Part shown: positions 9,275 through 23,309 of the stretch, piece after piece
Position numbering within the stretch: the stretch's first letter is position 1
Layout: each line of letters opens with the position of its first letter
Assembly: GCF_023101085.1 (NCBI RefSeq)
Contig: NZ_CP064703.1
Location: 3,348,001-3,412,000, forward strand
Length of the DNA: 64,000 nt
Reading direction: 5' to 3'
From: Bradyrhizobium sp. 170
GTDB lineage: Bacteria > Pseudomonadota > Alphaproteobacteria > Rhizobiales > Xanthobacteraceae
Position numbers and translations under genes: made by a program
The notes under the pieces: generated by a model
Database searches by the model: none
The model's input: only the letters and a program-made list of their open reading frames with translations
Told to the model about the DNA's origin: nothing

Positions 9275-10549
9275 CTACGGCATGCTTAGCTCATGCCTTC
9301 CGACCACCATCCAGTGCACTTCATCGGGACCGTCGGCGAAGCGCAGATGGCGCACATCCTGGTACATTTCGCCGAGCGAGCTCCATTGCGAAATGCCGGT
9401 GGCGCCGTGCATCTGGATTGCCTGGTCGATGATCTTGCAGGTGCGCTCCGGCACCATGGCCTTCACCATGCTGACCCAAATCCGCGCTTCCTTGTTGCCG
9501 AGCACGTCCATCGCCTTGGCCGCCTTCAGCACCATCAGCCGCATCGCCTCGATCTCGCAGCGCGCCTGGGCAATGATCTGCAGGTTGCCGCCGAGATGGG
9601 CGATCTTCTTGCCGAAGGCTTCGCGGGTCAGGCCGCGCGACACCATCAGGTCGAGCGCCTTTTCGGCCTTTCCGATCGTGCGCATGCAGTGATGGATGCG
9701 GCCCGGTCCGAGCCGGACCTGCGAGATTTCAAAGCCGCGGCCTTCGCCAAGCAGCATGTTTTCCTTCGGCACCCGGCAATTGTTGAAGCGCAAATGCATA
9801 TGGCCGCGCGGCGCGTGGTCATGGCCGAACACGTGCATCGGGCCCAAAATCTCGACGCCGGGGGTGTCGATCGGCACCAGGATCTGCGACTGCTGCTTGC
9901 TCGGCGGCGCGTCGGGATTGGTCTTCACCATCACGATCATGATCTTGCAGCGCGGATCGCCGGCGCCGGAGATGTAGTATTTCTCGCCGTTGATCACCCA
10001 TTCGTCGCCGACCAGTTTTGCCGTGGTCGAGATGTTCTTGGCGTCCGACGAGGCGACGTTCGGTTCGGTCATCGCGTAGGCCGAACGGATTTCGCCGGCG
10101 AGCAGCGGCTTCAGCCACTTCTCCTTCTGCGCCTTGGTGCCGACGCGCTCAAGCACCTCCATGTTGCCGGTGTCGGGCGCCGAGCAGTTCATGGTTTCCG
10201 AGGCCAGCGGATTCTTCGCGAGCTCCACCGCGATATAGGCGTAATCGAGGTTCTTCAGGCCCTGGCCGGTCTCGTCGTCAGGCAGGAAGAAGTTCCACAG
10301 CCCCTCTTCCTTGGCCTTGTCCTTGGCCTTCTGCAGCACCGCGAGCTGCTCCGGCGTAAAGCTCCAGCGGTCCTTCTTGGCCTCGCCAAGCCGCACGAAC
10401 TCGACCGACATCGGATCGACGGTTTCGCGAATGAACTTCTTAACGTGCTCGTACAGCGGACGGACCTCGTCCGACATGCGCAGATCGTTGAGTTCTTCGC
10501 CCGGATTGAGGTTGTAGGTCGTCGTTCGCGGGATATAGGCGTGTTTCAT
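9275..10549 (-). CDS. Acyl-CoA dehydrogenase, ACAD10/11-like
   Basis: The 424-residue flavoenzyme is preceded by GGGAGGAAATAATCC, a strong ribosome-binding site. YAMTEPNVASSDAKNIST and WVINGEKYYISGAGDPRCK are the FAD/acyl-CoA motifs. LGEGRGFEISQVRLGPGRIHHCMR and LRFADGPDEVHWMVVGRHEL are diagnostic of the ACAD10/11 subgroup. In human ACAD11 this domain is fused to an APH-like kinase, and together they convert 4-hydroxyacyl-CoA to enoyl-CoA through a phosphorylated intermediate. Here a separate APH-fold kinase lies 5.3 kb away (15874-16860). A plain alpha,beta-dehydrogenase role is the alternative. Confidence 0.88.
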   Translation of the reverse strand: MKHAYIPRTTTYNLNPGEELNDLRMSDEVRPLYEHVKKFIRETVDPMSVEFVRLGEAKKDRWSFTPEQLAVLQKAKDKAKEEGLWNFFLPDDETGQGLKNLDYAYIAVELAKNPLASETMNCSAPDTGNMEVLERVGTKAQKEKWLKPLLAGEIRSAYAMTEPNVASSDAKNISTTAKLVGDEWVINGEKYYISGAGDPRCKIMIVMVKTNPDAPPSKQQSQILVPIDTPGVEILGPMHVFGHDHAPRGHMHLRFNNCRVPKENMLLGEGRGFEISQVRLGPGRIHHCMRTIGKAEKALDLMVSRGLTREAFGKKIAHLGGNLQIIAQARCEIEAMRLMVLKAAKAMDVLGNKEARIWVSMVKAMVPERTCKIIDQAIQMHGATGISQWSSLGEMYQDVRHLRFADGPDEVHWMVVGRHELSMP

Positions 10550-10612
10550 GGATTATTTCCTCCCAATTGCGCAAGAACGTTGATCTTGCGGGCGCGCACT
10601 CGGCTCGTTGGC

Positions 10613-10647
10613 CGGCAATGTAGACGGCGGGGAGGGGCTTGCACAAG
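10613..10647 (-). promoter_or_regulatory. Predicted promoter of the ACAD10/11-like gene (shared block, copy 1)
   Basis: On the minus strand, CTTGTGCAA is followed after 14 bases by CGTCTACATTG. This can be read as a -35 TTGTGC and a -10 TCTACA or TACATT. The same arrangement with identical spacing stands upstream of the VOC gene at 12701-12735, although the middle bases differ. Conserved ends with a variable spacer are what a promoter would show. Confidence 0.45.
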
Positions 10648-10687
10648 CGCGGGCGAATGGGCGCGATTTTCCGCCGCGTGGTAAGTG

Positions 10688-10770
10688 CGTAGGATGGGTG
10701 GAGCGAAGCGATACCCCTCGATCCTCTCTCGCGCGACGTGATGGGTTTCGCTGCGCTCTACCCATCCTAC
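10688..10770. repeat. Palindromic intergenic repeat, family B, copy 1
   Basis: CGTAGGATGGGTGGAGCGAAGCG at the left pairs with CGCTGCGCTCTACCCATCCTAC at the right. Other copies are at 12143 and 17232. This one lies just after the M20 peptidase stop codon. Confidence 0.9.
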
Positions 10771-10773
10771 AAT

Positions 10774-12111
10774 TCATTTGCGCCGGGCCTTCTGCTCGAA
10801 GACGCCGAGCACGGCGAGCGTCATCGCGGTGATGCCGGTTTCGATGGTCGGCTTCGGCACCGGCGCGAACAGCGGCGAATGATTGGACGGGATTGGCGGG
10901 CCAGTGCCATTGCGTGCTGCGTCGATACGTTCCTGGTCATAGACGCCGATGTTGAACATCATCGACGGCACACCTGCGCCGGCGAATTCGGAGAAATCCT
11001 CGCTGGCGGTCCCCGGCGGCGAAACCCTGAACTTGTCGCCGAGTGCCGCCTTCAATACATCGGCGACGGCCGCGACCACATCGGGATCGTTCATGACGGG
11101 CTTGGCGCCCTCGGCGATCCGGATATCGGGCGCAGGTGCGCCTGACATGGCGGCAGCGGCCTTTGCCGTTCGTTCGATCCCGGCATGCAGTTTGGCGCGA
11201 ACCTCGGGCTTGAAGGAGCGAATGGTGCCGGAGAGTTGCACGGAGTCGGGAATGATGTTTCCAGCGGTGCCTCCGTGAATGGCGCCGATGGTCACGACGC
11301 CGAATTCAGTTGGATCCTTTTCGCGGCTGATCACGCCTTGTACGTCGACGATGAACCGCGCCGCAATCGCGACGGGATCGACGGTCGTGTGCGGCGCCGA
11401 ACCGTGACCGCCGCGGCCATGGAATGTCACCTCGAGACCGTCGGCGGCGGACGAGCCAACCCCGGTACGATAGAAGACCGTGCCATGAGGGAATGGGCCG
11501 TCATGCAGGGCAAGCGCGATGTCGGGCTTGGGAAAGCGCGTGAACAGGCCATGCGCAATCATGGCACGGGCGCCGGCCACAATCTCCTCCGCCGGCTGGG
11601 CGATGAACATCAGCGTGCCGCGCCATTGGTCCTTCAGGCCCAGCAGCGTCTTCGCCGTTCCGACCCAGCTCGCCATGTGGATGTCGTGGCCGCAGCTATG
11701 GGCGACGAATACCTCCCGCCCGTTCCAGGTGGTCTTGTCGCGGCTCGCATAATCGAGGCCGGTCTTCTCTTCCATCGGCAGCCCGTCGAGTTCGGTGCGC
11801 ACCATGATGGTGGGCCCGTCGCCGTTCTTGTAGATGGCAACCAGCCCGGTCTTGCCGACATTCTCGGTGACCTCGAAGCCGAGCGCGCGCATCTCGGCTG
11901 CGAGCCTGGCTGCGGTCTTCACTTCCTGAAAGGCCAGCTCCGGATGGGCGTGGAGTTCTTTGTAGAGCGCGTCGAGCTTTGGGTAATCGCTTGCGATCGA
12001 CGTCTCGATCGCTTTCTTGAGATTGATAACATCGAGCTCTGCGTGGGCCGGCAGCAGGCTGGCTGCAAACAATGCGGCTGATACCGCCAGGGATCTGGCA
12101 CATGGATTCAT
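10774..12111 (-). CDS. Exported M20-family amidohydrolase / metallopeptidase
   Basis: The protein has 445 residues. A signal peptide is evident ([20 protein letters not shown], cleavage probably after AHA), so it should act in the periplasm. [34 protein letters not shown] and [17 protein letters not shown] contain the metal-binding and catalytic Asp, His and Glu residues of the M20D hippurate/aminoacyl-amide hydrolase group. [21 protein letters not shown] is the dimerisation-domain motif, and [11 protein letters not shown] near the end carries a further ligand region. It probably hydrolyses N-acyl amino acids or peptides. It lies between family B repeats, so it is likely monocistronic. Confidence 0.9.
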
Positions 12112-12142
12112 GACGCGGCTCCCTTTGATTGTGTCGCAGTAT

Positions 12143-12227
12143 GTAGGATGGGTAGAGCGAAGCGAAACCCATCATTACAGCCACTGGTCGCGGCTGATGG
12201 GTATCGCTTCGCTCCACCCATCCTACG
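12143..12227. repeat. Palindromic intergenic repeat, family B, copy 2
   Basis: The arms are GTAGGATGGGTAGAGCGAAG and CTTCGCTCCACCCATCCTACG. It lies between the VOC gene stop and the M20 gene start, both on the minus strand. Confidence 0.9.
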
Positions 12228-12229
12228 AA

Positions 12230-12610
12230 CTACGTCGGCATCCGATGCATCGCGCAGATCTTGTTGCCGTCGAGATCGCGCAAATAGGCGAGGTACATTT
12301 TGCCCGCAGAGCCTTCGCGAATGCCCGGCGGATTCTCGCAGGTCTTGCCGCCATTGGCGAGGCCCGCCGCGTGCCATGCATCGGCCTGCTCGGGAGATTC
12401 TGCCGCAAAGCCGATGGTGCCGCCATTCGCCGGCGTCGCCGCCTGGCCGTTGATCGGCTTCGACACCGAGAACACACCGGTCTTGGTGAAGTAGAAAATA
12501 CGGTGGCCATCGACCTTGGCCGGCCGCACCCCGAGCGTGCCGAGCAACGCGTCGTAGAACGCCTTGGCCTTTTCGAGGTCGTTGGTGCCGATCATTACGT
12601 GCGAAAACAT
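12230..12610 (-). CDS. VOC (glyoxalase / bleomycin-resistance) superfamily protein
   Basis: This is a 126-residue single-domain protein. The ATG at 12610 follows GGGGAGGAATTGAAGAA and matches the family N-terminus ([24 protein letters not shown]). [20 protein letters not shown] central strands and the C-terminal [16 protein letters not shown] segment fit the paired beta-alpha-beta-beta-beta motifs of the VOC fold. Likely metal ligands are the early His (SHVMIG) and residues near the DLDGNK strand. The usual terminal Glu is not obvious (KICAMHR), so its chemistry is uncertain. It could be a lyase, a dioxygenase-like protein or a binding protein. The upstream promoter block is shared with the ACAD10/11-like gene. 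Confidence 0.8.
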
Positions 12611-12700
12611 TTCTTCAATTCCTCCCCAGTTTTTCTGACGAACAGCCGCAATTGCTGCTGCGCTTTCGCAAGGAACAACCCCGCGTGCTGCCCGTTGCCG

Positions 12701-12735
12701 GCCAATGTAGACGGCGCCCTCGGCGTTGCACAAGC
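12701..12735 (-). promoter_or_regulatory. Predicted promoter of the VOC gene (shared block, copy 2)
   Basis: On the minus strand, GCTTGTGCAA, 14 bases, then CGTCTACATTGGC mirrors the block at 10613-10647 with identical spacing. It would start a transcript with a leader of roughly 80 bases. The rest of this 321-base gap up to htpX (12736-12931) holds the htpX upstream region. Apart from the AGGAG ribosome-binding site before 12932, no repeat or small gene is visible in it. Confidence 0.45.
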
Positions 12736-12931
12736 AGGCGGGCTACCGGCGGGAGGTCCGGGAGCCCCCGTTGGCGGCAGATTACAGTTCGGTAATCCCG
12801 TCCGAGAGGGTGGTTTCCACCGGCAAACGCGGCGCCTCGACGCACCCGGGCATCTTGAAGCGCGGCTGGGGGAATTCTTACCTCTGGGATGCCAGTCCCG
12901 GCGTCCAGCCGCAGGCGGCAAGGAGACGACA

Positions 12932-13873
12932 ATGAGCTATCTGAAGACTGCCATTCTTCTGGCCGGTCTCACCGGCCTCTTCATGGGTGTCGGCTATCTG
13001 ATCGGCGGCGCCGGCGGTGCCCTGATCGCGCTCGTGGTCGCGGCTGCGACCAACCTGTTCGCCTACTGGAATTCGGACCGCATGGTGCTGTCGATGTACG
13101 GCGCCCATGAGGTCGACCGGAACAGCGCGCCCGACCTCTTCAATCTCGTGGCCGAGCTGGCCGGCCGCGCCGGCCTGCCGATGCCGCGCGTGTTCGTGAT
13201 GGACGAGGCGCAGCCGAATGCATTTGCTACCGGCCGCAATCCGCAGAACGCCGCGGTCGCCGTGACCACGGGCCTGATGCAGTCGCTAAGCCGCGAGGAG
13301 CTCGCCGGCGTCATCGCGCACGAGCTTGCGCATATCAAGAACCACGACACGCTGCTGATGACCATCACCGCGACGATCGCCGGTGCGATTTCGATGGTTG
13401 CGCAGTTCGGCATGTTCTTCGGCGGCAACCGCGACAACAATCACGGACCCGGCATCATCGGCTCGATCGCGATGATGATCCTGGCCCCGCTCGGCGCCAT
13501 GCTGGTGCAGATGGCGATCAGCCGTACCCGCGAATACGCCGCCGACGATCTCGGCGCGCGCATCTGCGGCCAGCCGATGTGGCTGGCGTCGGCGCTGTCC
13601 AAGATCGCGAATGCCGCGCATGTGGTGCCGAACCCGGAAGCCGAGCGCAATCCGGCGACCGCGCACATGTTCATCATCAACCCGCTATCGGGTCACGGCA
13701 TGGACAATCTGTTCACGACGCACCCGTCCACGGAGAACCGCATCGCCGCGCTGCAGCAGCTCGCGGCGGAGATGGGCGCGAGCGGCGGAACACTTTCCGT
13801 CAACACCCGCGGCAGCTATCCGCGCCGCGGCCCGTGGGGCCGGACTTCCGCCTCACGCGGACCGTGGGGATAA
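12932..13873 (+). CDS. htpX: Membrane zinc metalloprotease HtpX
   Basis: The protein has 313 residues from the ATG at 12932, 8 bases after AGGAG. The open frame upstream is non-coding. N-terminal hydrophobic helices (about 4-50), the zinc-binding HELAH at about residue 130 ([19 protein letters not shown]), and two more hydrophobic segments (about 145-195) are present. [15 protein letters not shown] provides the third zinc-ligand Glu. [13 protein letters not shown] is the conserved C-terminal peptidase M48 motif. HtpX degrades misfolded inner-membrane proteins, with its active site on the cytoplasmic side. The Arg-, Gly- and Trp-rich tail after residue 295 is unusual in composition. It has no obvious operon partner. 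Confidence 0.95.
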
Positions 13874-13884
13874 AGAATAAGCCC

Positions 13885-14030
13885 GTCGTCATTCCGGGCC
13901 GTGCGCAAGCTCGGCCCGGAATTCATTACACCTGACGTCATTGCGAGCACAGCGAAGCAATCCACGTCTCCACTTGCGGCGCACTTGATGCCCTGCCTTC
14001 GCGAGGCACGACGACCTTCTGCGTGATGAC
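13885..14030. repeat. Two abutting dispersed repeat remnants
   Basis: Bases 13885-13923 pair CGTCATTCCGGGCCG with CGGCCCGGAATT (family E). Then GACGTCATTGCGAGC-CAGCGAAGCAATCCA (13934 on) and GCCTTCGCGAGGCACGACG form part of another repeat type. Both lie between the convergent htpX and SDR genes. Confidence 0.7.
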
Positions 14031-14053
14031 GTTCTGCGTCCAACCACGAACCG

Positions 14054-14833
14054 TCAAAACGCCGTGTACCCGCCATCGATCACAAAACAATCCGCCGTAT
14101 GATACGACGACGCCTTGCTCATGATGTACACGGCGATGCCGCCAAAATCCGTAGGCTCGCCGAAGCGGCGCACCGGGATGCGCGGCATCACGTTGGCGAC
14201 GAATTTGTCGTTGCCCATGAGGCCGACGGTCATGTCGCTCTTGATCCAGCCAGGCAAGATCGCGTTCGCGGTGACACCGTGGCGCGCCAGTTCGACCGCA
14301 AGCGCGCGGCACAGCGCGTTCAGCGCCGCTTTGGTGCCGGCGTAATGCTCGTTGCGGGCGGTGCCGAACAGCGACGCGAGGCTCGAGGTTGCAACCAGCC
14401 GGCCGAACTTGTCGCCGGCCTCGGCGCGTTCGGTCATGTGGCGGGCGGCAACCTGAAACACGTGGAAGACGCCGTCGAGATTGGTCGCAAACATGCGTCG
14501 CCATTCCTCCTCGGTGCGGTCGATGAAGGCCCGCCGTCCGCCGCCGCCGATGCCGGCATTCGCAAAACAGCCGTCGACCCGGCCGAACGTATCGAGGGTT
14601 GCCTGCATCGCGGCCTTGACAGAAGCGGGATCGGAGACGTCGCAGATTTGGGTATGCACCTTGCCGGGACCGGCCGACATGGTTGCCGCCGCACTCCTGT
14701 TCTTCTCGGCGTTGCGTCCCCAGATCGAGACGTTGCAGCCTTGCGCGTTCAACGCCTGCGCGATGCCAAGGCCGATGCCGCCATTGCCACCAGTGATGAC
14801 CGCCGTGCGGCCGGTGAGGTCAAAGATGCTCAT
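14054..14833 (-). CDS. Short-chain dehydrogenase/reductase (SDR)
   Basis: This is a 259-residue classical SDR. TGGNGGIGLGIA (residues about 14-25) binds the nicotinamide cofactor. CFANAGIGGG is the NAG motif. VATSSLASLFGTARNEHYAGTKAA contains the catalytic Ser and the Tyr-x-x-x-Lys pair. FVIDGGYTAF is the usual C-terminus. It has an alanine-rich variable loop, and the substrate cannot be read off. It is divergent from the crotonase-kinase-DUF6285 operon starting at 15086. An SDR (LvaD) accompanies the kinase in the levulinate pathway, so a 3-hydroxyacyl-CoA or hydroxy-acid role is conceivable but unproven. Confidence 0.88.
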   Translation of the reverse strand: MSIFDLTGRTAVITGGNGGIGLGIAQALNAQGCNVSIWGRNAEKNRSAAATMSAGPGKVHTQICDVSDPASVKAAMQATLDTFGRVDGCFANAGIGGGGRRAFIDRTEEEWRRMFATNLDGVFHVFQVAARHMTERAEAGDKFGRLVATSSLASLFGTARNEHYAGTKAALNALCRALAVELARHGVTANAILPGWIKSDMTVGLMGNDKFVANVMPRIPVRRFGEPTDFGGIAVYIMSKASSYHTADCFVIDGGYTAF

Positions 14834-14864
14834 TGGGTGTTTCCATTTTGTTTGGGGCTAGCTA

Positions 14865-14940
14865 GAGCATGATCCGGAAAAGTGGGTACCGGTTTTCCCT
14901 CGCGACAAACCCGGAACGGGTTTGCGCGGAGATCATGCTC
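14865..14940. repeat. Palindromic repeat (GAGCATGATC ... GATCATGCTC)
   Basis: The ten-base terminal arms are perfect complements, enclosing ATCCGGAAAAGTGGGTACCGG and AAACCCGG-ACGGGTTTG. It occurs once here, in the intergenic region between the divergent SDR and crotonase genes. The composition is like dispersed rhizobial palindromes. Confidence 0.8.
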
Positions 14941-15085
14941 AAACAATAACAGGTTTGCGCCCGGTGGCGGGCAGATGTTCTGTTGCAAGCATGGACAAGC
15001 GCGTCCGGAAAATCAAATATGGGCGAGACATCATCCGATCTTCCGCGCAGCGAAATAGCGCGTAAACACAAGTCATGAGGAAGCA

Positions 15086-15877
15086 ATGCAGTTCAAGCAC
15101 GTCACGCTCGATTTCGATGGCCCGGTCGCCATTCTCAAGCTCGACCATCAGGAGGTCATGAACGCGGTCTCGATGGACATGCTGGGCGGTCTCGGCGAGG
15201 CGCTCGATGCGATCGAGGACAAGCGGGATGAGGTGCGCTGCCTCGTGCTGACCGGTGCCGGACGCGCATTCTGCACCGGCGCCAATTTGCAGGGCCGCAA
15301 CAACCAGAAGGCCGGCAAGAGCAATGCCGGGCAATCGCTGGAAATCGGCTTTCATCCGTTCCTGCGGCGGCTGCGCCGGCTGCATTGCCCGATCGTGTCG
15401 GCGGTCAATGGCCCCGCCGCCGGCGCCGGGATGAGCTTTGCATTGATGGGCGACATGATCGTGTGCGCGCGCTCATCCTATTTCCTGCAGGCGTTCCGCC
15501 GCATCGGCCTGGTGCCGGATTGCGGCTCGACCTGGCTGTTGCCGCGCATGATCGGCAAGGCGCGCTCGGTCGAATTGTCCTTGATGGGCGAGCGGCTGCC
15601 GGCGGAGAAGGCGCTGGAATGGGGCCTCGTCAACCGCGTCTATGACGATGCTGTCTTGATGGAAGAGGCGATGAAGCTCGCGCATGACCTCGCCAACGGA
15701 CCGACGATCGCGCTGTCCTTGATCCGAAAGCTCTATTGGGACAGCCCGGAAAATTCCTTTGAGGAACAGCTCAATCTCGAATTCGAATCGCAACGCATCG
15801 CGGGCGCGGCGGAAGATTTCAAGGAAGGCGTCACCGCGTTCCTCGAAAAGCGCCCCGCCAAGTTCAGGGGCAAATGA
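15086..15877 (+). CDS. Enoyl-CoA hydratase/isomerase (crotonase family)
   Basis: The 263-residue protein has GAGGA in front of its ATG. Crotonase oxyanion-hole segments are GAGRAFCTGANLQG (residues about 56-69) and NGPAAGAGMSFALMGD (about 108-123). SYFLQAFRRIGLVPDCGSTWLLPR carries the Asp at the site where PaaG-type isomerases have their single catalytic Asp, while hydratases have Glu pairs. It may therefore be an isomerase or another crotonase variant. Its last four bases overlap the start of the kinase gene (ATGA), implying translational coupling. It may handle the enoyl-CoA released by the kinase/ACAD step proposed for this cluster. Confidence 0.88.
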   Translation: MQFKHVTLDFDGPVAILKLDHQEVMNAVSMDMLGGLGEALDAIEDKRDEVRCLVLTGAGRAFCTGANLQGRNNQKAGKSNAGQSLEIGFHPFLRRLRRLHCPIVSAVNGPAAGAGMSFALMGDMIVCARSSYFLQAFRRIGLVPDCGSTWLLPRMIGKARSVELSLMGERLPAEKALEWGLVNRVYDDAVLMEEAMKLAHDLANGPTIALSLIRKLYWDSPENSFEEQLNLEFESQRIAGAAEDFKEGVTAFLEKRPAKFRGK

Positions 15878-16860
15878 TCGAGCAGCAACTCGGACGCTGC
15901 GTCGCCTCCTGGTATGAGGGCGCGACCGGCGTTACCGGGGCCGCCAAGCTTTCCGGCGGCGCCAGCCAGGAAACCTGGACGTTCGACATCGTGCATGCGG
16001 ACGGCAATGTCGGCGCGATCCTGCGCCGGGCGCCGCCGGGCTATGGCGCGTCGCCAGGACGGGCCGCCGGGCTCGATGCCGAGGCGACGCTGATGCAGCT
16101 CGCGCACGACGCCGGCCTGCCATCGCCGCGGGTGATGCATGTGCTGAAGCCGGAGGACGAACTCGGCACCGGCTTCATCATGCAGCGTATCGAGGGCGAG
16201 ACCATCGCGCGCAAGATTCTTCGCGATGAGCAATTTGCAAAAGCGCGGCCGATTCTCGCGCGGCAGCTTGGCCGCGTGATCGCCGGCATTCACGGCCTGC
16301 CGGCTTTGAGGCTGCCAAAACTGCGCGAGATGAGCGCGACAAAGGAAATCGCCGATCTCGAACGAGAATACCGCAGTTTCAACTGGCCGCGTCCGGTGTT
16401 CGAATTGGCGCTGCGCTGGCTGCGCGAGCACGATCCCGGGCCGTCGAAAGAGGTGACGCTGGTGCACGGTGATTTCCGCCACGGCAACCTCATCATCGGG
16501 CCTGATGGCGTGCGCGCGGTGCTGGATTGGGAGCTGGCGCATTTGGGCGATCCGATGGAAGATCTCGGGTGGATCTGCGTCAACTCCTGGCGGTTCGGGG
16601 AGATCGACAAGCCGGTCGGCGGCTTCGGCTCCCGCGAAGATTTGTTCGCCGGCTATGAAGAAGCCGGCCGCAAGGTCGACCCCGACCGCGTGATGTTCTG
16701 GGAGGTGATGGGCACGCTGCGCTGGGGCATCATGTGCTGCGGCATGATGCAGCGCTTCCGCTCCGGGCCGGATCATTCGATGGAGCGTGCGATGATCGGG
16801 CGGCGCTCGTCGGAGACCGAAATCGATTTGCTGAGATTGCTTGCTCCGAGAGGAGGGTAA
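15874..16860 (+). CDS. APH-fold phosphotransferase (LvaA / ACAD11 kinase-like)
   Basis: The protein has 328 residues. ASQETWTFDI leads into AILRRAPPGYG (ATP-site strand and Lys/Arg region), and GFIMQRIEGETIARKI is the hinge. VHGDFRHGNLIIGPDGVRAVLDWELAHLGDPMEDLGW contains the Brenner-type catalytic Asp, the Asn and the metal-binding DWE. These are features of the acyl-CoA-associated aminoglycoside phosphotransferase-like kinases, not of antibiotic-resistance enzymes. In Pseudomonas putida LvaA and human ACAD10/11, such domains phosphorylate 4-hydroxyacyl-CoA. The gene overlaps the crotonase by 4 bases and is followed after 1 base by the DUF6285 gene. Assigning a 4-hydroxyacyl-CoA substrate is inference from context. 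Confidence 0.85.
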   Translation: MIEQQLGRCVASWYEGATGVTGAAKLSGGASQETWTFDIVHADGNVGAILRRAPPGYGASPGRAAGLDAEATLMQLAHDAGLPSPRVMHVLKPEDELGTGFIMQRIEGETIARKILRDEQFAKARPILARQLGRVIAGIHGLPALRLPKLREMSATKEIADLEREYRSFNWPRPVFELALRWLREHDPGPSKEVTLVHGDFRHGNLIIGPDGVRAVLDWELAHLGDPMEDLGWICVNSWRFGEIDKPVGGFGSREDLFAGYEEAGRKVDPDRVMFWEVMGTLRWGIMCCGMMQRFRSGPDHSMERAMIGRRSSETEIDLLRLLAPRGG

Positions 16861-16861
16861 G

Positions 16862-17236
16862 ATGCAGGACGAACCGACACCCACCGAACTGATCAAGGCG
16901 GTCGCGGAGTTCCTCCGCAACGAGATCGCGCCCGTCATCACGGGCCACAACGCCTTCAAGCTTCGCGTCGGCATCAATGCGCTGGATCTTGTCACGCGAC
17001 AATTGGCGTTGGAGCAGGGGAACGATGCCGCGGAGTCCGCGCGGCTGAAGCAGTTGCTCGGCTCGGATGGTTCGTTGATCGAATTGAATCGCGCGCTGTC
17101 GGACAAGATTGCAGAAGGCGAGGTCGATCTGCAGACGCCGGGATTGGCCGAGCATCTCTGGCAGACCACGATGGACAAGCTCGCCGTCGACCAGCCGAAT
17201 TATGCGTCGTACAAAAGGGAGCTGGGGGGATCGTAG
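16862..17236 (+). CDS. DUF6285 protein, probable partner of the upstream kinase (LvaB-like position)
   Basis: The protein has 124 residues, all helical in appearance. Its ATG at 16862 follows GAGGAGGGTAAG, an excellent ribosome-binding site that overlaps the end of the kinase gene. IKAVAEFLRNEIAPVITGHNAFKLRVGINALDLVTRQL is the conserved N-terminal block of this family. There are no catalytic motifs. In the P. putida lva operon, a small protein encoded directly after the kinase gene is needed for kinase activity. Position and size here match that arrangement, so a regulatory or structural subunit is the best guess. Its stop codon TAG is formed by the first bases of repeat B copy 3. Confidence 0.75.
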   Translation: MQDEPTPTELIKAVAEFLRNEIAPVITGHNAFKLRVGINALDLVTRQLALEQGNDAAESARLKQLLGSDGSLIELNRALSDKIAEGEVDLQTPGLAEHLWQTTMDKLAVDQPNYASYKRELGGS

Positions 17237-17315
17237 GATGGGTAGAGCGCAGCGAAACCCATCAAGAGCATCGACGCCGTCGGCGATGGGTTTCGCTTCG
17301 CTCTACCCATCCTAC
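17232..17315. repeat. Palindromic intergenic repeat, family B, copy 3
   Basis: CGTAGGATGGGTAGAGCGCAG pairs with CTTCGCTCTACCCATCCTAC, and AAACCCATC pairs with GATGGGTTT inside. It overlaps the last codons of the DUF6285 gene and separates it from a convergent crotonase gene. Confidence 0.9.
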
Positions 17316-17324
17316 AAGGGATCC

Positions 17325-18104
17325 TTATTTCCCCAACCATTTCGGCGGGCGCTTCTCCGCAAACGCCTTTGGTCCCTCGATGTAATCCTGCGAGGCCGCC
17401 ATCGCCTTCACCGCCGGGTACTCCCGCTGCTCGGCGATCGCCTGTTCCAGCGATCCGTCGAGCCCGCGCTGGATCGCCTGCTTCGACGCGCGGATCGACA
17501 TCGGCGAATTCTTGCAGATCGTCTCCGCCCATCGCTCGGCCGCCGCCAGCGCTTCGCCGGCGGGAACCACCTCATTCACAAAACCCAGTTCAAGACCCTC
17601 CTTGGCCGAGACGTGGCGCGCGGTGAGGATCATGCCCATGGCGCGCTTCAGCCCGATCTGCCGCGGCAGCCGGTGCACGCCGCCGGCGAGGGCTGCGAGG
17701 CCGACGCGGGGCTCGGGCAGCGCGAAGGTCGCATTCTCCGCGGCGATGATGAGGTCGCAGGCCAGCGCGATCTCGAAACCGCCGCCCATCGCCACGCCGT
17801 TGACAGCGGCGATGATCGGCTTGTCGCAGTCGAACCGCGAGGTGAGGCCGGCGAAGCCGCCCTTGTCCCAGCCGCGCTTGCCGCCTGCGGCCTGCCATTT
17901 CAGATCATTGCCGGCGCAGAACGCCTTGTCGCCGGCGCCGGTGACGATCGCGACCCATTGCGCAGGGTCGGCGGAGAAATCGTCGAACACCTTGTTGAGT
18001 TCGAAATGCGCGTCGATATGCAACGCGTTGTACACTTCGGGCCGCGACAGCGTGATGATCGTGATCGGTCCCTTGCGCGTTACCTTGGAGAATTTCAGGT
18101 CCAT
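17325..18104 (-). CDS. Enoyl-CoA hydratase (crotonase family)
   Basis: The protein has 259 residues from the ATG at 18104, preceded by GGGAGC. The frame extends non-coding to 18311. GAGDKAFCAGNDLKW and NGVAMGGGFEIALACDLIIAAE are the oxyanion-hole loops. FALPEPRVGLAALAGGVHRLPRQIG provides the Glu-containing catalytic helix (EPRVG), with a hydratase-like Glu. GPKAFAEKRPPKWLGK is the usual C-terminal trimer helix. It hydrates 2-enoyl-CoA esters. It is divergent from the acyl-CoA dehydrogenase at 18329, a natural pair for successive beta-oxidation steps. Confidence 0.9.
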   Translation of the reverse strand: MDLKFSKVTRKGPITIITLSRPEVYNALHIDAHFELNKVFDDFSADPAQWVAIVTGAGDKAFCAGNDLKWQAAGGKRGWDKGGFAGLTSRFDCDKPIIAAVNGVAMGGGFEIALACDLIIAAENATFALPEPRVGLAALAGGVHRLPRQIGLKRAMGMILTARHVSAKEGLELGFVNEVVPAGEALAAAERWAETICKNSPMSIRASKQAIQRGLDGSLEQAIAEQREYPAVKAMAASQDYIEGPKAFAEKRPPKWLGK

Positions 18105-18225
18105 GTTTGCTCCCGTTTCGATTTTCTGCGGCGAAGAATATTGGCCACGATCATAGCGCCGGCGCGGCGTTCGATACCATCCAATTACGCAAGGCGCCTG
18201 CGCGTGCCAAGCTCGATTCCGTTGC

Positions 18226-18256
18226 TTGACTTGGACCGGGTCTTCCAACCTAAATC
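18226..18256 (+). promoter_or_regulatory. Candidate promoter of the acyl-CoA dehydrogenase gene
   Basis: TTGACT (18226-18231) is followed by 17-19 bases and CCTAAATC, about 75 bases before the TTG start at 18329. The -35 is near consensus, and the -10 is weak or at non-optimal spacing. Confidence 0.35.
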
Positions 18257-18328
18257 GGTCCGAGCAGGAGCGCTCGCGTAGCGCCTGAACGCAAATCAAA
18301 ACAAACGACATTTCCGGGAGAGACCGCC

Positions 18329-19603
18329 TTGGATTTCAACCTGCCTGCCGACCTCACGGCCTATCTCGACGAGCTCGACCGCTTCATCGCGCGCGAGATC
18401 AAGCCGCTGGAGGAAGCCGACGACAACATCCGCTTCTTCGATCACCGCCGCGAATGGGCGCGCACCGATTTCGAAAACGGCGGCCTGCCGCGTCACGAAT
18501 GGGAAGCGCTGCTCCGCAAGGCCAAGAATCGTGCCGACGCCGCCGGCCATTTGCGCTTCGCGATCCCGAAGCGCTACGGCGGCAAGGATGGTTCCAACCT
18601 CTGGATGGCCGTGATCCGCGAGCACTTTGCGTCAAAGGGCCTCGGCCTGCACAATGATTTGCAGAACGAACATTCGATCGTCGGCAATTTGCCCATCGTT
18701 ACCATGCTCGACCGCTACGGCACCGACGATCAGAAGGCGATGATCGACGGCTCGATCACGGGAAAATATCGTATCACGTTCGGCCTCACCGAGCCCGAGC
18801 ACGGCTCGGATGCGACCCATATGGAAACCAGGGCGGTGCAGGCGACCCGCGACAACGTCAAGGGCTGGATCATCAACGGCCAGAAGATGTGGACGACGGG
18901 CATGCATGTCGCCACCCATTGCGCGCTGTTCGCCCGCACCTCAGGTAATGACGGCGATGCGCGTGGCATCACCTGTTTGCTGGTGCCGGCCAAGAGCGAA
19001 GGCGTGAAAGTCGAGGAGTATATGTGGACCTTCAACATGCCGACGGACCATCCGCGCGTCAGCTTCACGGATGTGTTTGTCCCTGAGGATGCGCTGTTCG
19101 GCGAAATCGGCCGCGGCCTGTCGCTGGCGCAATGTTTTGTGCACGAGAACCGGATTCGCCAGGCGGCGAGTTCGCTGGGCGCGGCCGTCTACTGCATTAA
19201 CGAGAGCGTCAAATATGCGCGCGAGCGAAAACCGTTCGGCAAGGCGCTGGCCGAGAACCAGGCGATCCAGTGGCCGCTGGTGGAACTGGCGACGCAGGCC
19301 GAGATGCTCAGGCTGTTGATCCGCAAGACCGCATGGGAGATGGACCAGCTCACGCAAGCGCAGGTCGAGCACACGCTATCCGACCGGGTGTCGATGTGTA
19401 ATTTTTGGGCCAACCGCCTGTGCTGCGAGGCCGCCGACCGCGCCATGCAGGTGCACGGCGGCATGGGCTATTCGCGCCACAAGCCGTTCGAACACATCTA
19501 CCGTCACCACCGCCGCTACCGCATCACCGAGGGGAGCGAGGAAATCCAGAAGCGCAAGGTCGCGGGATTCCTGTTCGGGTATATGGGGGCGGGGAAGCAT
19601 TAG
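18329..19603 (+). CDS. Acyl-CoA dehydrogenase (TTG start)
   Basis: The protein has 424 residues. No ATG fits the N-terminus. A TTG at 18329 lies 8 bases after CGGGAGAG and starts the conserved sequence (DFNLPADLTAYLDELDRFI). RITFGLTEPEHGSDATHM is the FAD/acyl-binding loop, and GWIINGQKMWTTGMHVATH and FTDVFVPEDALFGE follow. MQVHGGMGYSRHKPFEHIYRHHRRYRITEGSEEIQ is the C-terminal FAD-binding helix region, containing the catalytic Glu (EGSEE). It oxidises an acyl-CoA and passes electrons to ETF. The subgroup has an N-terminal extension with several charged residues. Within the proposed 4-hydroxy-acid cluster it could equally serve the ordinary beta-oxidation step. Confidence 0.9.
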   Translation: MDFNLPADLTAYLDELDRFIAREIKPLEEADDNIRFFDHRREWARTDFENGGLPRHEWEALLRKAKNRADAAGHLRFAIPKRYGGKDGSNLWMAVIREHFASKGLGLHNDLQNEHSIVGNLPIVTMLDRYGTDDQKAMIDGSITGKYRITFGLTEPEHGSDATHMETRAVQATRDNVKGWIINGQKMWTTGMHVATHCALFARTSGNDGDARGITCLLVPAKSEGVKVEEYMWTFNMPTDHPRVSFTDVFVPEDALFGEIGRGLSLAQCFVHENRIRQAASSLGAAVYCINESVKYARERKPFGKALAENQAIQWPLVELATQAEMLRLLIRKTAWEMDQLTQAQVEHTLSDRVSMCNFWANRLCCEAADRAMQVHGGMGYSRHKPFEHIYRHHRRYRITEGSEEIQKRKVAGFLFGYMGAGKH

Positions 19604-19717: not shown

Positions 19718-21298
19718 TCAATTCACCTGCCGGTCCTTGCCCGCCCAATACGGATCACGCAAATTCCGCCGCAGAATCTTTCCCGACGGATTGCGCGGCA
19801 GCGCCTGCAGAAAGTCGACCGACTTCGGCGCCTTGAATCCCGCGATGCGCTCACGGGTGAAATTGATGATGTCGGTGGCGGTCGCCTGCTTGCCGGGCTT
19901 CATCACAACGATCGCCTTGACCGCTTCGCCCCACTTGTCGTCGGGGATGCCGATCACGGCGGCTTCGGCCACATCAGGGTGATCGCAGATCGCGCTTTCG
20001 ACTTCGGCCGGGTAAATGTTTTCGCCGCCGGAGATGATCATGTCCTTGATGCGGTCGTGGATATAGAGGTAGCCGTCCTCGTCCATGTAGCCGGCATCGC
20101 CGGTGCGCAGCCAACCGTCGCTGCCGAGCGTCCTGGCGGTTGCCTCGGGCAGGTTCCAGTAGCCGGCCATGTTGGAGCCGGAGCGGGTGGCAATTTCGCC
20201 GACCTGGCGTGGCGGCAATCGCTTGCCATCAGGGTCGAGGATCGCAAGCTCGATGCCGGGCAGCGCCTTGCCGGCGGAGCGCATCCGCTCCAGCCCCTCG
20301 ACGTGGTCCTCGGGCGGAAGGGCTACGATGGTGCCCGTCGTCTCGGTCATGCCGTACAGCTGCACGAAGCCGCATTTGAAAACCTCGATGCACTCCTTCA
20401 AGAGCGCAGCAGGAATCGGCGAGGCGCCGTAGAGCATATATTTCAGGCGGGAGAAATCCACCTGCCGCGCCCGCGGCTGTCGCACCACAAACTGCATCGC
20501 GGCCGGCACCATGAACAGTTTTGTAATTCCGGACTGTTCGAAGAAATCCAAAATCCGGGTCGGATCGAACTCGCGCGCGATCACGCCCTTGGCGCCGTGA
20601 TAGAGGCCCATCACGCCCCAGCCGGAGCCGCCGATATGGAAGATCGGCATCGCCACCAGCGATACGTCGTCGCTGGTCCATTTGTTCCACTCGGGCTTCT
20701 CGGCCTCGTCGCCGGCGTTCACCAGATTGAGGAAGTTGGCATGCGACAGCATCGCGCCCTTGGGCTTGCCCGTGGTGCCCGACGTATAGAGCTGGATCGC
20801 GATGTCCTTCGGACTGATCGGCACCTTTGGGTCGTCGCCGCTTGCGGCGTCGCGCCAAGCAGCAAAATCCTGCCATTCCGGTGCGCCGCCCTCGGTGGTG
20901 ATCACGTGGCGCACGTCAGGCAGTTGCGCCCTGATGTTGCGAACCTGGGTGATGAATTCAGGGCCTACGAACAGCACTGGCGCCTTGCAGTCGGTGACGA
21001 TGAACGCAACCTCTGGGCCCGCGAGGCGCCAGTTGACCGGTGCCATCACCACATTGGCCTTCATCGCGCCCATCAACAATTCGAAATAGAAGTCGCTGTT
21101 CTTGCCGATATAGGCGATCCGCTCACCCGGCTTGACGCCGAGCGCAATCAGCGCATTCGCAACGCGGTTGGTGTTGATGTCGAATTCGGCGAAGCTGGTC
21201 TGGCGTCCCTCGAACTCATAGGCCGGCGCGTTCCCAAGTGTCCTGGCGCGGTCGCGCACCATGTCGGCAAGGTTCGTCAGTTGCTGCGAAACGGACAT
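19718..21298 (-). CDS. AMP-forming acyl-CoA synthetase (long-chain fatty-acid-CoA ligase type)
   Basis: The protein has 526 residues from the ATG at 21298, which follows GGGAGAG. The frame extends upstream through a repeat, which is not coding. IQLYTSGTTGKPKGAML is the P-loop, QLYGMTETTGT the adenylate motif, GWLRTGDAGYMDEDGYLYIHDRIKDMIISGGENIYPAEVE the hinge region, and PRNPSGKILRRNLRD carries the C-terminal catalytic Lys. It activates a carboxylic acid to its CoA ester via acyl-AMP. LvaE in the levulinate pathway belongs to this superfamily, so the enzyme could supply substrate to the nearby kinase. The specificity is unknown. Confidence 0.92.
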   Translation of the reverse strand: MSVSQQLTNLADMVRDRARTLGNAPAYEFEGRQTSFAEFDINTNRVANALIALGVKPGERIAYIGKNSDFYFELLMGAMKANVVMAPVNWRLAGPEVAFIVTDCKAPVLFVGPEFITQVRNIRAQLPDVRHVITTEGGAPEWQDFAAWRDAASGDDPKVPISPKDIAIQLYTSGTTGKPKGAMLSHANFLNLVNAGDEAEKPEWNKWTSDDVSLVAMPIFHIGGSGWGVMGLYHGAKGVIAREFDPTRILDFFEQSGITKLFMVPAAMQFVVRQPRARQVDFSRLKYMLYGASPIPAALLKECIEVFKCGFVQLYGMTETTGTIVALPPEDHVEGLERMRSAGKALPGIELAILDPDGKRLPPRQVGEIATRSGSNMAGYWNLPEATARTLGSDGWLRTGDAGYMDEDGYLYIHDRIKDMIISGGENIYPAEVESAICDHPDVAEAAVIGIPDDKWGEAVKAIVVMKPGKQATATDIINFTRERIAGFKAPKSVDFLQALPRNPSGKILRRNLRDPYWAGKDRQVN

Positions 21299-21520: not shown

Positions 21521-22393
21521 TCACCCCCTTGCCGCGCGGTCCTTTTCGTTTTGCGCCTTGATCGAGTCGCGCGCCGCGTTCCAGTCGTCGTCGCTCCAGT
21601 CGCGCAGCTGATAGAAATTGCCGCCCATCGCGAGCGCCTGCGCGCCGTCCATGGCGATGGTTTCGCCGTTGATCCAGTCGCAGCCACCGGAGATCAGGAA
21701 CACCGCGAGGTTCTGCAACTCCTCCATGGTGCCGACCCGGCCCATCGGGTTCTGCGCCCGGGTGCGCGCGCCGGCCTCGTCGCCGGGCTTGATGCGCTTG
21801 CTCATGCCCTCGGTCGGGATTTCACCGGGTGCAATCGTGTTGAGGCGGATGCCGTGTTTGCCCCATTCGACCGCCAGCGACATCGTCATGGCGTGGATCG
21901 CCGATTTGCTCATCGCCGACGGCACCACATAGGGCGAGCCGTTGCGCACCCAGGTCACGGTGATCGACACCACATTGCCGGGCAGCTTGGCGGCGATCCA
22001 GCGCCGTCCGACCGCATGCGTCACATAGAAAGTGCCATGCATCACGATGTTGGCGACGGCATCGAAGCCGCGCGGCGAGAGCTCTTCCGACCGCGAGATG
22101 AAATTTCCGGCAGCGTTGTTGATGAGATCGGTGAGGGGACCTTCGGTCCAGATCGCTTCGATCATTTCGTCGACGGCCATCGCATTGCGGATGTCGACGC
22201 CGTGGCTGATCACACGCCCGCCATGAAGGTCCATCAATTCGGTCGCGGTCTCATCGCACACGATTTTGCGGCGACCGCAGATGTGGACCTCGGCTCCCAG
22301 TTGGAGAAATCGTGCGGCCATGGACTTGCCGAGGCCGGTGCCGCCTCCGGTCACGAGAATGCGCCGCCCGGCGAGAAGCTGATCGTTGAACAT
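21521..22393 (-). CDS. SDR oxidoreductase of the 2,4-dienoyl-CoA reductase-like group
   Basis: The protein has 290 residues from the ATG at 22393; the long frame upstream is antisense to the crotonase gene. TGGGTGLGKSMAARF binds NADPH, and NNAAGNFISRSEELSPRGF is the NAG-type motif typical of dienoyl-CoA reductases. The segment SITVTWVRNGSPYVVPSAMSKSA lacks the usual Tyr four residues before the Lys, as in mitochondrial 2,4-dienoyl-CoA reductase. MSLAVEWGKHGIRLNTIAPGEIPTEG is also typical of that group. It would reduce 2,4-dienoyl-CoA from unsaturated fatty acids. It is divergent from the crotonase at 22497, sharing a 103-base control region. Confidence 0.82.
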   Translation of the reverse strand: MFNDQLLAGRRILVTGGGTGLGKSMAARFLQLGAEVHICGRRKIVCDETATELMDLHGGRVISHGVDIRNAMAVDEMIEAIWTEGPLTDLINNAAGNFISRSEELSPRGFDAVANIVMHGTFYVTHAVGRRWIAAKLPGNVVSITVTWVRNGSPYVVPSAMSKSAIHAMTMSLAVEWGKHGIRLNTIAPGEIPTEGMSKRIKPGDEAGARTRAQNPMGRVGTMEELQNLAVFLISGGCDWINGETIAMDGAQALAMGGNFYQLRDWSDDDWNAARDSIKAQNEKDRAARG

Positions 22394-22438: not shown

Positions 22439-22496
22439 AACCGGACAACACCGTTCTGTAAAGCCGCAACTGAAGATATCAGCGAGGAGATTTTTC

Positions 22497-23309
22497 ATGG
22501 AGCAACGCGTTTCGATCTCGATTTCGGACGGCATTGCCGATGTCCGGCTGGTGCGGGCCGACAAGATGAACGCGCTCGATGCCGCGATGTTTGAGGCGCT
22601 GGTGGCCGCAACCGAGCGGCTTGCCCATGAAAAAGGCGTTCGAGCGGTAGTATTGTCCGGGGAGGGGCGGGCGTTTTGCGCCGGTCTTGATATGGGACGC
22701 TTCGCCGCGATGAAGGAAAACGGCGGTAACGGGATCGCCGGTGGCGAGAAACGGGACCTGTCTGCACGCACGCATGGGCTTGCGAACTTTCCGCAACAGG
22801 CGGTCTGGGGCTGGCGGCAGCTTCCGGTGCCTGTCATCGCCGCGATCCAGGGCGTGGCGTTCGGTGGCGGGTTCCAGCTCGCGCTCGGTGCCGACATGCG
22901 CTTCCTCACGCCGGACGCGCGGATGTCAATCATGGAGATCAAATGGGGCCTGGTGCCCGACATGGCCGGCACGCCCATTCTCGCGAGCCTCGTCCGTGAC
23001 GATATCCTGCGCGACCTCACCTATACCGGCCGCATCTTCTCGGCGCAGGAAGCCATGAGCTATGGCCTCGCGACGCGGATCTGCGACGATCCGCTTGCAG
23101 CGGCCCTCGAGGTCGCGCGTGAAATCGCCGGCAAGAGCCCGGATGCGATCCGCGCCGCCAAGCGCATGTTGAACAATTTGTCCGTCGATCCCGGTCCGGC
23201 GCTGCTTGCCGAATCCATCGAGCAGCAGAAGTTGCTGGGCAGCCCCAACCAGACCGAGGCGGTGCGTGCCAACATGGAAAAACGCGCGCCGCGGTTTGCG
23301 GAAGCTTAA
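22497..23309 (+). CDS. Enoyl-CoA hydratase/isomerase (crotonase family)
   Basis: The protein has 270 residues from the ATG at 22497 (GAGGAG 8 bases upstream). LSGEGRAFCAGLDMGRF and IQGVAFGGGFQLALGADMRFL are the oxyanion-hole loops. MSIMEIKWGLVPDMAGTPILASL has Asp at the second acid position, so isomerase or dienoyl-CoA isomerase chemistry is possible. An insert between the loops (KENGGNGIAGGEKRDLSART) is longer than in canonical hydratases. ANMEKRAPRFAEA is the C-terminus. With the divergent dienoyl-reductase-like SDR it could form an unsaturated-fatty-acid processing pair. Confidence 0.88.
   Translation: MEQRVSISISDGIADVRLVRADKMNALDAAMFEALVAATERLAHEKGVRAVVLSGEGRAFCAGLDMGRFAAMKENGGNGIAGGEKRDLSARTHGLANFPQQAVWGWRQLPVPVIAAIQGVAFGGGFQLALGADMRFLTPDARMSIMEIKWGLVPDMAGTPILASLVRDDILRDLTYTGRIFSAQEAMSYGLATRICDDPLAAALEVAREIAGKSPDAIRAAKRMLNNLSVDPGPALLAESIEQQKLLGSPNQTEAVRANMEKRAPRFAEA

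Follow-up and report, generated by a model that had tools for sequence, protein, structure and literature searches.

What does a kinase of the aminoglycoside phosphotransferase (APH) fold do when a small protein of the DUF6285 family is encoded directly behind it, and which acyl-CoA dehydrogenase (ACAD) works with it? The question is raised by a 64,000-bp stretch (the window; G000:C1:3348001–3412000) of the 9.2-Mb single-contig genome of Bradyrhizobium sp. 170. A first-pass annotation of the window had proposed levulinate-type catabolism by an unfused, rearranged version of ACAD10/11, with reference to Pseudomonas putida, in which LvaA with its small partner, LvaC, LvaD and LvaE reportedly degrade levulinate via a phosphorylated 4-hydroxyacyl-CoA. 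All genes that it named were found in place and belong to the families described, as checked by open reading frames (ORFs) and profiles. The locus appears to hold a variant of the LvaAB-type kinase system in which another flavoenzyme is the partner. From sequence, we consider the chance about even that positions 15874–19603 encode a kinase–DUF6285–ACAD_B module for a hydroxyacyl-CoA.

The kinase gene (15874..16860, forward strand) encodes a protein of 328 residues (PF01636, 120.8 bits) with the Brenner motif HGDFRHGN and a DWE motif; these catalytic residues (HGD...N and DWE) are retained in all kinases compared. One base past its stop codon, with a GGAGG site ahead, starts the gene for the LvaB-like DUF6285 protein of 124 residues (16862..17236, forward; PF19802, 110.4 bits when scanned from an upstream start at 16841), which has one copy in the whole genome. 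Ahead of the kinase gene lies the crotonase gene ECH1 (15086..15877, forward; NF004635, 489 bits, cut-off 351), whose stop overlaps the kinase start by four bases (ATGA, 15877/15874) and whose family was found near the kinase in four genera. Both the kinase–DUF6285 arrangement and the coupled crotonase had been described correctly. The first-pass annotation did not single out ACAD_B (18329..19603, forward; 424 residues, TTG start), an acyl-CoA dehydrogenase family protein, as the steady partner of the kinase. In 20-kb regions from the same genus, all chosen for containing DUF6285, the kinase, DUF6285 and ACAD_B were present in 29 of 29, and a further dehydrogenase, ACAD_A (9275..10549, reverse), in 27.

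LvaB as annotated in the lva operon of a plasmid from Pseudomonas aeruginosa (L071) was found to belong to PF19802 (85.3 bits), as were, above the cut-off, the small proteins adjoining kinases in Azotobacter, Azospirillum, Variovorax, Cupriavidus pinatubonensis, Thermus and Sulfitobacter. According to passages of PMC6692424, Rand et al. (2017) found LvaB to be pulled down with LvaA, and lvaA, lvaB and lvaC mutants to show no growth on levulinate. Among 129 loci, many of them from one genus and some sites fetched twice, kinase and DUF6285 genes lay side by side in 117, were fused in 11 and stood apart in one, which makes 128 loci with adjacency or fusion. LvaA-type kinases are also found fused to DUF6285 (L112, L113, and L115). 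The window kinase is 33.6% identical to LvaA and 26.9–29% identical to the genome's own ACAD10/11-type kinase at 6.18 Mb. In a kinase tree (81 kinases, of which 56 rows were kept, the window genus being reduced to five), the eight rows (seven distinct) that group with the 6.18-Mb kinase, all without DUF6285, were split from the 48 others with 100/100 support. DUF6285 lies beside or inside all of these 48 except for a Nonomuraea kinase (L134), where it is ~5 kb off. Within the 48, the LvaA side and the window side separate at 83/81, with Thermus outside both. The family membership of LvaB, the tree and the natural fusions thus suggest, by homology, that the kinase pairs with DUF6285 as a two-subunit hydroxyacyl-CoA kinase of the LvaA/LvaB type.

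Other arrangements around such pairs were also observed. A histidine-phosphatase-family gene is located directly 3′ of DUF6285 in operons of Thermus, Azospirillum and Azoarcus (L067, L072, and L135), and such a gene adjoins an lvaA homologue in Pseudomonas citronellolis according to a passage in PMC6692424. In a third context, the pair occurs near an acyl-CoA synthetase and an ACAD pair resembling Sulfitobacter ACAD2/ACAD3 (Cupriavidus metallidurans L068, 3.1–8.3 kb; Variovorax paradoxus L073, 3.1–9.3 kb; and L121 from genome G473), and the kinases of this context form a three-row clade of their own (100/100). At G052:C1:2583909–2584183, DUF6285 is present in two overlapping pieces (profile positions 1–64 and 62–91), as if frameshifted, with kinase and ACAD_B adjoining. 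An ACAD10/11-type kinase lies 3–9 kb from a window-type kinase or ACAD_B in three genera (L096, L099, and L145).

The distribution of ACAD_B follows that of the window-type pair. Among 398 genomes of the phylum, with ACAD_B counted at E ≤ 1e-100, PF19802 was found in 39 and ACAD_B in 30, and 29 genomes were common to both. The 30th ACAD_B genome (G395) carries a fused kinase–DUF6285 gene beside ACAD_B that was missed by the Pfam search and found by our own profile. Every one of the 30 ACAD_B genomes has DUF6285 beside or inside a kinase; these genomes with the window-type module are called W-type below. Ten DUF6285 genomes were without ACAD_B (G105, G113, G374, G409, G142, G166, G233, G268, G448, and G481); nine of them have LvaA-group kinases and G233 was not placed in the tree. 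A Fisher test on the resulting table (30/0/0/368) gave 8e-46, a value in which related genomes count as if independent: ten of the 30 W-type genomes, which represent 17 genera in all, belong to one genus. In 10 genomes, the kinase and ACAD_B genes are widely separated or located on separate contigs.

Absences and additional copies are also shared. Within the genus, 5 of 98 genomes were without DUF6285, and four of these (G031, G040, G047, and G050) are without ACAD_B as well; at E ≤ 1e-10, no kinase matches were found in these four apart from ones of 27–29% identity (G031 and G050). Joint absence was also seen among relatives belonging to one family or even to one genus: compared with G353, G405 is missing DUF6285 and ACAD_B together and has a 33% identical kinase. 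Genome G021 contains a foreign-type kinase, DUF6285 and ACAD_B (L129) besides its native set (L130), and sets closely similar to the foreign type were found in two named Bradyrhizobium records (L247 and L252). Kinase and ACAD_B distances were correlated (r 0.64, 36 pairs, 0 of 2000 shuffles), as would also be expected from shared ancestry alone.

Gene fusions point in the same direction. Among named ACAD_B loci (the best 80 of at least 584, with flanks of up to 8 kb), kinase and DUF6285 were fused in 22 and unfused in 45, and neither was within reach in 13. The 22 fusions are titled Sphingopyxis, Novosphingobium, Erythrobacter, Porphyrobacter or relatives (Sphingomonadales), and the fused gene, upstream of ACAD_B, stops no more than 100 bases from ACAD_B or runs into its open frame in 19 and lies 1.4–2.0 kb off in three. 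In Sulfitobacter, an ACAD_B with 70% identity to that of the window follows DUF6285 directly. When conserved neighbours were searched for a clue to the substrate (families clustered at 45% identity, leaving out antisense and other-frame ORFs over the same genes), no real family other than the kinase, DUF6285 and ACAD_B occurred in more than five genera.

ACADs were typed by R626, H634, R637 and D753, which according to passages of PMC12440821 are required by ACAD11 for 4-phosphoacyl-CoA and the removal of its phosphate. Among the rows compared (15 LvaA-type and 27 window-type kinases), a lyase-type ACAD is located at most 3 kb from 11 of the LvaA-type kinases, and an ACAD_B orthologue at most 3 kb from 17 of the window-type kinases. 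The ACAD_B of the window has F, Q, S, and E at ACAD11 positions 626, 634, 637, and 753, as has every orthologue typed; compared with a phospho-acyl-CoA lyase of the LvaC/ACAD11 type, it is without the Arg/His/Arg clamp and the Asp base. All of 52 ACAD_B sequences showed F/H/N/R/R/Q/S/E at positions 626/628/630/631/633/634/637/753, all of 76 lyase-type ACADs showed R626, R631, H634, R637 and D753, and 17 other ACADs were mixed. Since the groups were defined by part of the same columns, the columns independent of the definition are 628, 630 and 633 for ACAD_B and 628, 630, 631 and 633 for the lyase type. In a separate alignment of 42 ACAD_B sequences, F270, N274, R275, R277, Q278 and the catalytic E401 were invariant, positions 274 to 278 forming an invariant N274-R275-I276-R277-Q278 run, and S281 was nearly so; the five best ACADs from the PDB have Gly/Thr, Gly/Pro and Val/Ile at N274, R277 and Q278. 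Conserved blocks of ACAD_B are RFFDHRRE, NDLQ.E, WTFNMP, H.NRIRQ and YRHHRRYRITEG. Among the matches listed, the closest come from Bradyrhizobium (Bradyrhizobium sp. SRL28 at 99% identity), and the listed members of this large family are named only as general acyl-CoA dehydrogenases. In the ACAD_B model, 20 residues have a predicted local distance difference test (pLDDT) score below 50 and fall partly in the signature blocks, and therefore no geometric argument was drawn from it.

A comparison of kinase residues suggests what DUF6285 may contribute. In passages of PMC12440821, the ACAD11 kinase is modelled to hold coenzyme A (CoA) via R86, which adjoins the alphaC Glu, and via R176. An Arg beside the alphaC Glu was found in 7 of 7 ACAD10/11-type kinases, in none of 15 LvaA-type and in 1 of 27 window-type kinases, and the window kinase has Ala at this place. 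The first further Arg of an ARQxxRW stretch of the ACAD10/11-type kinases was absent in all 42 LvaA-type and window-type rows; the position of R176 was not exactly mapped onto the kinases compared. Because the kinases associated with DUF6285 are mostly without the arginines of the ACAD10/11 type, DUF6285 is proposed as the source of these contacts and may supply acyl-CoA or substrate contacts of the kinase. The family is large (7771 relatives at E ≤ 0.001), and against solved structures it gave one match (E 1.3), which was not used. A model of the fused kinase–DUF6285 protein of Sphingopyxis had a mean pLDDT of 89.9, and its kinase part resembles 3dxp, 25-hydroxysteroid kinase (25-HSK) and Rv3168; in VIA-align only residues 1–321 of this model were spanned by at least a fifth of the rows, so that the DUF6285 part was hardly tested by the fold search. 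An open-literature search returned nothing on DUF6285, nor on 'phosphotransferase family protein' together with acyl-CoA dehydrogenase and enoyl-CoA hydratase; searches with aminoglycoside phosphotransferase and related terms gave none on the module, as judged by titles and abstract openings.

Starting from the kinase–DUF6285 pair, its fusions, the co-occurrence of ACAD_B and the missing clamp, all of which are read from the sequences, we infer the following for the substrate and the reactions. The kinase and DUF6285 would phosphorylate a hydroxyacyl-CoA, with DUF6285 giving the acyl-CoA contacts, and the phosphorylated product would pass to ACAD_B, which occupies the operon place of LvaC and has a different active site. 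There, a Glu would serve as base instead of the Asp, and the helix face with the invariant Asn-Arg-Gln would stand in for the Arg/His/Arg clamp. ACAD_B would dehydrogenate the product or eliminate phosphate, the phosphate being at a position other than C4, and the resulting enoyl- or dienoyl-CoA would go to the neighbouring crotonases. A more specific version, which we offer tentatively and regard as rather doubtful, is that ACAD_B represents a second kind of phospho-acyl-CoA flavoenzyme that evolved apart from LvaC and ACAD10/11, that the substrate is hydroxylated off C4 (for example at C5, leading to a 2,4-dienoyl-CoA), and that DUF6285 is an acyl-CoA-binding kinase subunit.

Several observations weigh against the module. 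The split between window-type and LvaA-type kinases is only moderately supported. The second further Arg of the ARQxxRW stretch was found in 1 of 15 LvaA-type and 4 of 27 window-type kinases, and the residue comparison is the single line of evidence for the role of DUF6285. In G016, a fragmented assembly that is 89% complete, ACAD_B was present and DUF6285 and a window-type kinase were not found; G090 has a partial DUF6285, and ACAD_B was not found in it. Besides, ACAD_B still has the usual catalytic Glu and might simply be an ordinary dehydrogenase, and lyase-type ACADs accompany the kinase widely, as detailed below after the dehydrogenases of this type in the genome itself.

When the window kinase was searched against its own genome (E ≤ 0.001), one further match came up, at 6.178 Mb. 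This kinase adjoins an ACAD (ACAD_C) that is 53–54% identical to ACAD_A; the pair carries HGDYRLDN in the kinase and RLGPGRIHHCMR and LADGPDEVH in the ACAD, and DUF6285 is not present there. PDB matches of the 6.18-Mb kinase reached 412 bits for 3dxp and 255 bits for ACAD11, compared with 59.3 and 50.2 bits for the window kinase. Because of its motifs and far stronger matches, the organism's unfused pair of ACAD10/11 type is placed, on sequence, at the 6.18-Mb locus (L003), and in the part of the window read no ACAD10/11-type kinase was seen. The idea that the window encodes an unfused, rearranged ACAD10/11 is therefore not supported, all the more as the window kinase falls in the other clade and 12 of the 30 W-type genomes have no ACAD_A. 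The description of ACAD_A as ACAD10/11-like was confirmed: it contains RLGPGRIHHCMR and FADGPDEVH, its best PDB match is ACAD11 (8v3u, 384.5 bits), and equivalents of R626, H634, R637 and D753 are all present. By residues it belongs to the ACAD10/11-type system; a fused or adjacent kinase of the ACAD10/11 clade was not found. At E ≤ 1e-150, orthologues of ACAD_A were detected in 18 of the 30 W-type genomes and in 4 of the 368 others. Due to its absence from the other 12, which include G383, a genome of the same family with an otherwise similar kinase cluster, ACAD_A was ruled out as an obligate partner and is retained as an optional companion of phospho-lyase type. A further ACAD of the genome (G000:C1:7885306–7886358; L007 and L149) has R, H and D at ACAD11 positions 626, 634 and 753, with His for R637 and Gly for C635 (RRHGHDH), and is perhaps another lyase variant.

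The strongest rival explanation, which we consider a serious possibility of somewhat lower probability than the module, is that the kinase–DUF6285 pair phosphorylates a 4-hydroxyacyl-CoA, that the phosphate is removed by a lyase-type ACAD (in this genome ACAD_A, in others a different one), and that ACAD_B is an ordinary dehydrogenase of the same pathway, producing or using up an acyl-CoA, as its catalytic Glu would allow. A lyase-type ACAD was detected by profile (E ≤ 1e-110) in 30 of 30 W-type genomes, and therefore the kinase could feed a lyase in each of them; it was detected in 107 of 368 other genomes and in all ten LvaA-type genomes. In the best matches of 20 W-type genomes all four lyase residues were read, while the 107 were assigned by profile alone. 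The distance from the kinase to a lyase-type ACAD is ~5 kb in Bradyrhizobium, ~7 kb in Sulfitobacter, ~12 kb in G473, ~15 kb in G242 and ~30 kb in G285, and the lyase-type motif was present in 25 of the 80 named ACAD_B loci. The distribution of ACAD_A, with its enrichment in W-type genomes and its frequency in the genus regions, fits this explanation as well, and its absence from G383 and the other W-type genomes speaks against it. No lyase-type motif was found in the 22 fused-kinase loci within the flanks of up to 8 kb. Further, six genomes (G183, G234, G308, G445, G447, and G474) have a single ACAD above the lyase profile threshold, G308 having another at 3.0e-104, and in three of these (G447, G474, and G308) that lone lyase-type ACAD is located beside or near an ACAD10/11-type kinase. 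Because ACAD_A is absent from 12 W-type genomes and lone lyases are partly found beside ACAD10/11-type kinases, the kinase–DUF6285–ACAD_B module is preferred.

The substrate of the proposed module is probably not levulinate. The window SDRs (short-chain dehydrogenases/reductases) are 29–30% identical to LvaD and its acyl-CoA synthetases 28–33% identical to LvaE, and the ACAD nearest to the kinase is ACAD_B, the lyase-type ACAD_A lying ~5 kb off on the other strand. Because of this low likeness and a kinase without an adjoining lyase, the window was rejected as a levulinate operon, and the levulinate catabolism of the first-pass annotation is not supported. The LvaC of L071 (9355–10527) is only 31% identical to the ACAD11-like ACADs of the window genome, and its best ACAD11 match in the PDB gave 198.5 bits vs. 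384.5 for ACAD_A; in passages of PMC11342911, identities of 62% and 56% are reported for ACAD10/11 and LvaC.

It is improbable that the kinase uses a substrate that is not an acyl-CoA, for instance an isoprenoid chain carrying a secondary or tertiary alcohol, in the manner of 25-HSK. This enzyme (9fsg and 9ft5) is among the top fold matches of the fused model and matches the window kinase by sequence (42.5 bits), but it is outscored by ACAD11 and by 3dxp, a close relative of the 6.18-Mb kinase that was also first by VIA-align, and a fold match does not show the substrate. Moreover, DUF6285 is common to LvaAB, which acts on acyl-CoA, and the neighbours of the pair are acyl-CoA enzymes. That ACAD_B and the kinase are functionally unrelated and merely common to lineages rich in lipid-degrading genes would agree with the occurrence of 29 of 30 W-type genomes in the window's class and the enrichment of ACAD_A and lyase-type ACADs there, but is highly implausible in view of the 30/30 vs. 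0/368 distribution with G395 counted, the joint absences within the genus and in close relatives, the joint foreign-type copies, and adjacency in many genera though unlinked in others.

The remaining genes around the module agree with the two further acyl-CoA enzymes, SDR and acyl-CoA synthetase of the first-pass annotation, all of which were found in place. Crotonase ECH2 (17325..18107, reverse; 260 residues from an inner start; PF00378, 211 bits) lies between DUF6285 and ACAD_B, and its family occurs near the kinase in five genera. It is followed beyond ACAD_B by acyl-CoA synthetase ACS1 (19718..21298, reverse; 526 residues; NF004837, 658.6 bits), which shares 49% identity with the synthetase whose gene immediately precedes the kinase gene in Sulfitobacter pontiacus (L066). 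SDR1 (14054..14833, reverse; PF13561) is divergent from ECH1 and has a counterpart with 86% identity in the cluster of G383 (L101), and the nearest model to SDR2 (21521..22357, reverse) is a 2,4-dienoyl-CoA reductase (NF005811, 233 bits, below the cut-off of 318). Crotonase ECH3 (22494..23309, forward) is a genus-level neighbour, and acyl-CoA synthetase ACS2 (23467..25011, forward) shares 43% identity with a synthetase from the cluster of Sulfitobacter (L066).

Phosphorylation of a hydroxyl followed by expulsion of the phosphate is described in passages of PMC12440821 and PMC11342911 as a recently found entry of hydroxylated fatty acids into beta-oxidation in bacteria and mammals (ACAD10/11). 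If the module exists as proposed, a kinase of this strategy is paired with a different flavoenzyme and the strategy would be broader than 4-hydroxy acids, a function would be put on a large ACAD family so far generically named, and DUF6285 would be given a testable role.

Compared with known systems, the module shares the kinase–DUF6285 pair with the lva operon of Pseudomonas, and in both, in linked loci, an ACAD comes after the pair or next to it. It differs in that the place of LvaC is taken by ACAD_B (26–27% identical to LvaC), without equivalents of R626, H634, R637 and D753, and in that its SDRs and synthetases only distantly resemble LvaD and LvaE and its kinase is 33.6% identical to LvaA. 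The likeness to ACAD10/ACAD11 and the unfused bacterial pair at 6.18 Mb (L003) is confined to ACAD_A with its four lyase residues, whereas the window kinase belongs to another clade, comes with DUF6285 and carries Ala where ACAD10/11-type kinases have the Arg next to the alphaC Glu. To our knowledge, 25-HSK has no DUF6285 partner. The 25-HSK of Sterolibacterium (9fsg and 9ft5) resembles the window kinase in its APH-like fold and in phosphorylation ahead of elimination, but its substrate is a free steroid alcohol, and its lyase partner was reported as unknown in 2021 in a passage of PMC8449060. With ordinary ACADs (CarC, MCAD, and SCAD), ACAD_B shares the fold of its model, the catalytic Glu and a conserved Arg, and it differs from them by its specific blocks and by identities of only 22–29% in the structure matches listed.

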